A stretch of 64,000 nt of DNA, taken from NCBI GenBank assembly GCA_029008095.1, contig JAQXJB010000029.1, forward strand, positions 34,255-98,254. The letters are read 5' to 3'. How positions within the stretch are numbered: position 1 is the first letter of the stretch; the number at the start of each line of letters is the position of its first letter. Made by a program: the position numbers and the translations under genes. Of the stretch, positions 22,232 through 64,000 are shown one piece after another. Source of the DNA: Clostridiales bacterium (GTDB lineage Bacteria; Bacillota; Clostridia; Oscillospirales; Oscillospiraceae). The notes below the pieces were generated by a model. That model worked only from the letters and a program-made list of their open reading frames with translations, ran no database searches and was not told the origin of the DNA.

Positions 22232-22378
22232 AGTGTGAAAAAATCACATTATATTATTAAAAGCCCATCTGCTCGCCGCTTCGCTGCAGCCGTAGATGAC
22301 GGCTATAATCCCCATTTCGCCGGGGGAGCATTTCGTTTCTGATTTGTGCCGTTCATAGCGGCGGAATGGGGGATTAAT
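22232..22378 (+). repeat. interspersed structured leader repeat, copy A (upstream of ClpP-like gene)
   Basis: AGTGTGA...TCACATT palindrome; CATCTGC/GTAGATG hairpin; AATCCCC-ATTTCGCCG / CGGCGG-AATGGGGGATT long-range stem ending at ATG 22379. Confidence 0.85.
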
Positions 22379-40073: not shown

Positions 40074-40085
40074 TAAGAAGATAAT

Positions 40086-40227
40086 AGTGTGGAAAATCAC
40101 ACTATATAAAAGCCCATCTGCTCGCCTTTTTGCGGCAACAGCAGATGATGGCAATAATCCCCCATTTTGCCGGGGGAGGATTTCATTTCTATTTGTGCCG
40201 CTCATAGCGGCGGAATGGGGGATTCAT
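40086..40227 (+). repeat. interspersed structured leader repeat, copy D (ends at HIT gene start codon)
   Basis: AGTGTGGAAAATCACACT; CATCTGC/GCAGATG; 17-bp stem 40156-40172/40208-40224 burying SD GGGGGA; ATG at 40228. Confidence 0.88.
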
Positions 40228-40587
40228 ATGTCCGATGTTCTTAAATATGATCCAAACTGTTTGTTTTGCAAGATAATCAAGGGCGATATACCTTCAAATA
40301 AAATATTTGAGGATAATCTGTGCTATGCCTTTTATGACATAGACCCGCAGGCGCCTACTCATTTTCTTGTGATTCCCAAGGTGCACATCGCCTCCGCGGC
40401 TGAGGTGACCAAGGGAAACAGTGCCATTGTAGGCCATATTTTTGAGGTTATCTCCAAGCTGACTAAGGAGCTGGGGATCGAAAGCTTCCGCGTTGTTTCC
40501 AACTGCGGCGAGCAGGCCGGCCAGACCGTGTTCCATCTGCATTTCCACGTCCTCGCGGGGCGTGACATGACTTGGCCTCCCGGCTGA
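40228..40587 (+). CDS. HIT family (HinT-like) protein
   Basis: CLFCKIIKGDIPSNKIFEDNLCYAFYDIDPQAPTHFLVIPKVHI; QTVFHLHFHVLAGRDM. Confidence 0.96.
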   Translation: MSDVLKYDPNCLFCKIIKGDIPSNKIFEDNLCYAFYDIDPQAPTHFLVIPKVHIASAAEVTKGNSAIVGHIFEVISKLTKELGIESFRVVSNCGEQAGQTVFHLHFHVLAGRDMTWPPG

Positions 40588-46590: not shown

Positions 46591-46704
46591 TAATATCCGT
46601 GATACGGATATTATGTTCGATTTAAGCCGCTTTGCTCGTCCTTGCGGAACAACCGCAAAGCATGGCACATTATACCATAACGGCTTTGCCGACATGGTAT
46701 AATG
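46591..46704 (+). repeat. divergent relative of the leader repeat / structured leader upstream of glmS
   Basis: TAATATCCGT-GAT-ACGGATATTA; AAGCC-GCTTTGC-TCGTCCTTGCGGAACAACC-GCAAAGC-ATGGCA; CATTATACCAT...ATGGTATAATG. Confidence 0.5.
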
Positions 46705-50869: not shown

Positions 50870-50984
50870 TTAAAACACCTCTTTTTTATTTTAGCATCTT
50901 TTTGCCCAAAGGACAATAATAACATGCGGGAAAAAGCAGCAGTTTTAGAAAGGGGCTTTGAGTGGGCACGTAGTTAAGCTCCGT

Positions 50985-51044
50985 ATCCTACATGAAAAAG
51001 AAATATCCTACATGAAAAAGAAATATCCTACATGAAAAAGAAAT
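50985..51044 (+). repeat. three perfect tandem copies of a 20-bp unit
   Basis: ATCCTACATGAAAAAGAAAT x3 (50985, 51005, 51025). Confidence 0.98.
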
Positions 51045-51049
51045 ATCAG

Positions 51050-63623: not shown

Positions 63624-63659
63624 GCAAAACCGCCGTTTCGTTTGAAACGGCGGTTTTGC
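63624..63659. terminator. bidirectional terminator between lipoprotein gene and rnpB
   Basis: GCAAAACCGCCGTTTC-gttt-GAAACGGCGGTTTTGC. Confidence 0.8.
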
Positions 63660-63662
63660 TGT

Positions 63663-64000
63663 GAGAAGCCATGTAAGCCGGGTTCTGTGCAGACTTGAAC
63701 GGCCTGTAAATCCGTGTCTGCGGCAGTCATCTATCTAGGCGTACCGTTGCCGGCACGCTCAAGCCACCTCCCGGGGACGGCCGGGCAGGCCAATGTCCCC
63801 TCCGCGGTGTTGCTGCGGATAGAGTTTACAGCGCCGGACTGTTCCCAGCCGGCGGGTGAGCTCTTACCTCGCCTTTCCACCCTTGCCTGCCTGAGGCAGG
63901 CGGTATATCTCTGTTGCACTTTTCCTGAAGTCGCCTTCGGCGGGCGTTACCCGTTATCCTTGCCCTATGCAGCCCGGACTTTCCTCGTAAGCAGCCTTTC
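63663..64000 (-). ncRNA. rnpB: RNase P RNA, class A (5' end at or beyond window edge)
   Basis: Minus strand GAGGAAAGTCCGGGCTGCATAGGGCA...GGTAACGCCCG...GAGGTAAGAGCTCACC...CAGAACCCGGCTTACAT universal P RNA core. Confidence 0.95.

Follow-up and report, generated by a model that had tools for sequence, protein, structure and literature searches.

Palindrome-associated transposable elements (PATEs) of the IS200/IS605 type have no inverted repeats and no target duplication, insert directionally 3´ of a short target, have hairpin ends and use guide pairing (PMC7290912). Bacterial miniature inverted-repeat transposable elements (MITEs) and small repeats, such as Correia, BOX, RUP, SPRITE and repetitive extragenic palindromic (REP) sequences, are short, non-coding, multi-copy, intergenic and structured, and some contain promoters or terminator-like folds (PMC10969869). 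The IS110 bridge RNA is a structured end whose guide segments address target and donor (PMC11208160), and the TAACTGA repeats of marine Beggiatoaceae occur in many copies, mostly forward, within nucleotides of the start codons of unrelated genes (PMC4679880). Here we describe an element, copy D, found upstream of a HIT-domain gene in a 64,000-nt stretch of DNA (the window; contig JAQXJB010000029.1, positions 34,255 to 98,254) from a Clostridiales bacterium, an Oscillospiraceae-type gut bacterium (assembly GCA_029008095.1, here genome G000). Copy D very probably is a member of a small non-coding mobile family that inserts into expression signals and bears a replacement signal at its right end, in this case a Shine-Dalgarno sequence (SD). 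As a class, these are small non-autonomous mobile elements; sister types do likewise to promoters and probably to transcription terminators. This assignment draws on copy number, a position rule, empty sites, a shared head, signal copies at the right end and covarying structure, all observed directly.

The element shares the junction features of PATEs; a target-like right end is clear for the class found at −10 boxes, while the SD class fits less well. It differs from PATEs in its signal-length targets (SD/start, −10 box, T-run), a right end that restores the signal, a head hairpin (H2) shared between classes, and the lack of a matching Y1 transposase gene. Like MITEs and small repeats, it is short, non-coding, multi-copy, intergenic and structured, but its ends (AGTGTG and GGATT) do not form inverted repeats, it causes no target duplication, it lies base-exact at start codons or −10 boxes in one orientation, and it re-supplies the signal. 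The TAACTGA repeats differ in being 7-nt tandem repeats with no SD or RNA fold and no shown insertion mechanism (PMC4679880). As for the IS110 bridge RNA, there is a structured RNA-like end with guide segments, but the host has no IS110 gene and the guide is an end-complementary arm, not left and right guides paired in loops. Its two exclusive pairings, one hiding and one freeing the SD, recall translational riboswitches, from which the element is set apart by the absence of a gene theme or a ligand, by its mobility, and by a head shared with non-translational classes. Thus, the fold resembles a translational switch but the downstream genes do not fit one, and the junction logic resembles that of PATEs but no matching enzyme was found.

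Structure of copy D

Copy D has alaS on one side and the HIT-domain gene on the other. Its parts and immediate surroundings are as follows, G003 being a genome of the same genus.

40075 to 40082, plus strand: AAGAAGAT, probably what remains, in decayed form, of the HIT gene's native SD to the left of the insertion (the empty site in G003 reads TAA TTGAGGAGGCATTTATATG)
40086 to 40224, plus strand: copy D, SD-class element (AGTGTG...GGATT), matched by covariance model R1 at 40084-40230 with 135 bits
40084 to 40105, plus strand: hairpin H1 (ATAGTGTG/CACACTAT), across the left junction (helix 1, 91.8% paired, changed on both sides in 5/8 pairs)
40109 to 40155, plus strand: hairpin H2, the conserved core (TCGCC...GGCAAC, with a 2-nt AT bulge), matched by covariance model R2 with 57 bits; 13/14 pairs covary across classes
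40156 to 40172, plus strand: guide or anti-SD arm AATCCCCCATTTTGCCG, forming 17 pairs with 40208-40224
40174 to 40182, plus strand: internal decoy GGGAGGATT, its local pairing conserved in SD classes
40197 to 40211, plus strand: hairpin H4 (GCCGC/GCGGC), seen in the sequence and mutually exclusive with the long stem
40208 to 40224, plus strand: right arm CGGCGGAATGGGGGATT, identified from sequence and folding, with the element's own SD (GGGGGA, 40217-40222)
40228 to 40587, plus strand: HIT-domain protein (PF01230), start codon ATG 40228, 3 nt past the element

A sequence-only reading of this DNA had proposed that the two arms form 17 continuous pairs, two of them U-G, which bury the SD before ATG 40228, and that the same 5´ arm can pair instead with an internal decoy. 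We found the pairs at exactly the positions claimed, the sequence confirmed the buried GGGGGA, and the decoy was present and recurred across SD-type copies. The leader folds with z = −4.3 relative to dinucleotide shuffles, 0/200 of which reached equal stability.

Copies lie at a fixed distance from start codons

Copy inventories were built from model searches of genomes. Where the sequence-only reading had counted four copies (A to D), G000 yielded 44 by blastn and 83 by covariance model, about 70 of them of the SD kind. SD-class elements are about 140 bases long (family range about 110-150 nt), and all extracted copies have a single orientation relative to the downstream gene. The start codon begins exactly 3 nt past the terminal GGRGGATT in 58/64 non-tandem copies with a readable right end, whereas native GGAGG-to-ATG spacing, measured in genes of a sister species, is broad (5 to 11 nt). 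The fixed +3 register thus is not merely what translation permits, ruling out random insertion followed by selection for workable SD spacing. The junction base is T in 83% of copies compared to 21% at the equivalent native position, and an SD-like sequence is found within 18 nt left of the element in 40/63 copies compared to 14/71 in a control stretch further upstream. In tandems, the downstream copy mostly begins right behind the GGRGGAT(T) of the upstream one; this would be the outcome if elements inserted into start regions that earlier elements had created.

At two loci (L118 and L115), class-1 copies have CGTATAAAGGAG and AATACAATACAAAGGAGG where the start codon would be, and another SD lies further downstream; these possibly are insertions upstream of an SD, or start codons that were lost. 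At two others (L062 and L068, genomes G076 and G110, from two genera), an element situated between a pyrK-like and a pyrD-like gene seems to overlap the upstream gene at its end and to provide its last codons and stop. A scan of the genomes for the stem as a DNA pattern returned mostly chance palindromes in other phyla, with true copies at L146 and L159.

The genes behind the copies, as identified with NCBIfam and Pfam, include gyrB, dxr, triosephosphate isomerase (tpiA/tim), coaD, deoC, cysK, rapZ, xseB, clpB, TatD, HIT, Sir2, Clp protease, phosphofructokinase and NusB/RsmB-type genes, among others. No functional theme was apparent among them, nor the heat-shock-type theme of an RNA thermometer. 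Of these genes, gyrB, dxr, tim and coaD commonly are essential.

Empty sites indicate insertion without target duplication

The element is missing at 14 orthologous starts in the portion of G003 that was compared, and the site at the HIT orthologue, corresponding to copy D, is empty in this genome. A filled site reading cgaggtgat[E]acaATG, with E the element, corresponds to an empty site reading cgaggtgatcacATG (cgaggtgat+aca compared to cgaggtgatcac), the two being of equal length once the element is removed. The same holds at xseB (19 nt filled, 19 nt empty) and on the minus strand of L027 (8 and 8). These equal lengths, in the best-aligned pairs, indicate insertion without target duplication or loss. 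Target site duplication is thereby ruled out; an extra TAT was seen only at the tandem of copies B and C. At one divergent intergenic region, the element is on one side in genome G002, on the other side in G003, and on both sides in G000.

Sister classes share the H2 head

Among the G000 matches, about a dozen elements of 110-120 nt share H2 and have the right end ATGGTATAAT, an extended −10 box. In the one clear case of an empty site for this promoter class, the filled site reads TTGCCG-N17-TATAAT[E]caataaaaac and the empty site TTGCCG-N17-TATAATcgataaaaac, placing the insertion directly 3´ of a native TATAAT with a −35-like TTGCCG 17 nt upstream. Empty-site evidence covers the SD class (14 starts) and the promoter class (one site). 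Left flank and right end match copy by copy in the promoter class (permutation p about 0.0009, for 15 hand-picked, partly related copies). In the terminator class, the right end is a T-run, and 8/10 elements have a hairpin and T-run on their left side, abutting intrinsic terminators. Further variants of the SD right end are GGGAGGTT, and AAAGGAATGGTCAT followed by ATG. In each of these classes, the right end closely repeats the signal that the insertion interrupts, and it pairs with a guide-like arm inside the element.

Across all classes, 98% of H2 cells are paired and 13/14 pairs are changed on both sides, giving a covariation score of 0.756 compared to 0.174 for shuffled alignments. Within the covarying stems, H2 has an internal loop (TC/AACC) conserved in sequence, and a bulge. 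Matches were found in 50/201 genomes of the family and 42/106 genera sampled.

Genome G096 (L305, L313, L321, L328) has 87 H2-model matches, and those that were read through have GAATTAAT as their end and an ATTAAT-like left flank; these elements are a further target class. H2-headed elements with arms ATATTACTTC... and ...GAAGTAATAT also were observed in G033 and G187 (L299, L307, L311, L319).

Alternative pairings around the SD are conserved

The long stem covaries: in the structure of which it is a part, 23/36 pairs were changed on both sides among 45 copies from several genera, a result reached in 0/500 shuffles. As an example of compensation, the AATCC and GGATT seen elsewhere are AAGCC and GGCTT in G002. 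The decoy pairing had p<0.05 relative to shuffles of the inner segment in 44/89 SD-type copies, and its median p was 0.05 in SD classes compared to 0.24 in the terminator class (1/9 at p<0.05); the promoter class has no room for a decoy. The claim of mutually exclusive pairings that bury or free the SD therefore holds, and both are evolutionarily maintained. That both recur in the other window copies likewise stands, except that the terminal "SD" of copy B serves no gene, since copy C follows head to tail. Folding predicted the SD to be paired in 47/52 copies. The median cost of opening it was 7.1 kcal/mol, compared to 3.9 for native SDs and 9.7 for copies with the decoy masked. Thus, the decoy is predicted to offset SD occlusion.

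Proposed mechanism and alternatives

We propose that the SD class enters on the sense strand, 3 nt upstream of the start codon and downstream of the native SD, without target duplication, and that the terminal GGRGGATT would then act as the new SD of the host gene. A mobilising enzyme could recognize target and end through a guide, namely the arm that complements the right end (AATCCYCC; in the promoter class, ATTATACCAT). Because this arm would sequester the SD in the mRNA, elements of the SD class would retain the decoy. Translation of the host gene probably is lowered or tuned rather than abolished, as judged from predicted folding, and no ligand would be needed. Re-supply of interrupted essential signals would explain how dozens of copies are tolerated before genes such as gyrB. 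At all three kinds of site (−10, SD/start and terminator), DNA is opened or held by RNA polymerase, through the open complex, pausing close to start codons and termination, respectively. More tentatively, and on such general grounds, the exposed non-template strand might be where the element enters.

The sequence-only reading had favored a riboswitch or thermosensor. If a large regulon were under the control of a cis-acting RNA that had spread by duplication, be it a translational riboswitch, a thermosensor or a protein-binding leader, with H2 as sensor and H3/H4 against the long stem as platform, this would account for the conserved bistable pairing, the decoy retained in SD classes and the aptamer-like internal loop and bulge within covarying H2 stems. 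Indeed, conserved alternative structures around the SD are present at the level of structure, with translational control predicted. Yet the downstream genes are unrelated, orthologues within the genus lack the element, copies occur head to tail, and the same H2 is found at promoters and terminators, where hiding an SD makes no sense. A search of Rfam gave no family above the gathering threshold and nothing relevant. We therefore regard this explanation as highly unlikely, and ligand or temperature sensing as unsupported; a regulatory role on top of the mobile-element function is conceivable. A more credible alternative, though still a doubtful one, is that both pairings are without a role in expression and arise as by-products because a short element houses guide and target copy together. 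The promoter and terminator classes keep the stem between guide and right arm though they have no SD to regulate, as this predicts, but the decoy is enriched in SD classes, and masking it raises the SD opening cost by about 2-3 kcal/mol.

Several observations weigh against the mobile-element interpretation set out above, foremost that we did not find a mobilising enzyme. Each of three candidates (Y1 transposase, reverse transcriptase and IS110 recombinase) is lacking in several genomes rich in copies. An ordinary PATE derivative of IS200/IS605, moved by Y1 transposase with unusually long guide pairing, would fit the lack of inverted repeats and duplication, the insertion 3´ of a target that the element's end nearly copies, the hairpin ends and the internal guides. 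However, Y1 transposase (PF01797) is equally common in genomes with (20/50) and without (63/151) the element, giving no correlation over the 201 genomes, is absent from seven copy-rich genomes (G033, G062, G083, G096, G184, G187, G110), and is encoded in G000 by two genes that both have other ends. Y1 was rejected as mobiliser on these grounds, and we consider a PATE origin unlikely. It is likewise rather improbable that these are small RNA-guided elements, bridge-RNA-like or intron-like, whose RNA guides an unnamed recombinase or nuclease. RNA-like head covariation, a guide arm matching both target and end, and left-right agreement are in line with such a system, but IS110 (PF01548) is absent from G000, G187 and G110, and reverse transcriptase (PF00078), the hallmark of a group II intron or retroelement host, from G000, G033, G062, G096 and G110. 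In addition, the promoter-class target is upstream of the transcript, such that RNA-level insertion alone cannot account for this class. The assembly of G000 is 96% complete, so a gene could be missed there, but this is unlikely in all copy-rich genomes. A search, not exhaustive, for an autonomous copy with a gene between head and right end found none. Also at odds with our interpretation, an internal guide choosing the SD predicts a fixed distance between SD and element, whereas it is the distance to the ATG that is fixed; the promoter class has one clear empty site; and the statements on translation are predictions.

G000 contig 10 (L039, 1-950) has a REP-associated tyrosine transposase (RAYT)-type Y1 gene amid tandem copies of a different palindromic repeat (GGCGGAGGCGTGCCTCCGCC); this locus is a separate REP/RAYT system.

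Our mobile-element interpretation suggests that riboswitch-like bistable leaders can originate from mobile DNA, and the roughly 70 near-identical SD switches in one genome constitute a natural library. An exchangeable module of guide and target points to mobilisation by a system whose specificity can change, unlike the three enzyme families tested. Tentatively, the family might even be a new category of guide-programmed element, in which one conserved head for an enzyme is combined with an exchangeable guide/target-copy module, so that lineages could switch between targets (SDs, −10 boxes, T-runs and others) and still mend the disrupted signal. The open-access literature gave no description of such an element, though absence there is no proof of novelty.

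Other features of the window

The window contains further copies and RNA genes.

22232 to 22375, plus strand: copy A, before a Clp-protease-like gene (PF00574; ATG 22379), covariance model R1, 123.5 bits
32519 to 32652, plus strand: copy B, with copy C directly behind, covariance model R2, 58.4 bits
32656 to 32790, plus strand: copy C, before a Sir2-family gene (PF02146; ATG 32794), covariance model R1, 144.3 bits
46595 to 46703, plus strand: promoter-class sister, located before a glmS-like gene (H2 core at 46623-46669; CATTATACCAT as guide and ATGGTATAAT as right end), covariance model R2, 55.9 bits
568 to 757: 6S RNA
63658 to 64000, minus strand: RNase P RNA, cut by the window end

The gene behind copy C should be read from ATG 32794 and not as the longer frame from 32764. 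At 50984-51047, we also noted a 20-nt tandem repeat, TATCCTACATGAAAAAGAAA, in three exact units.
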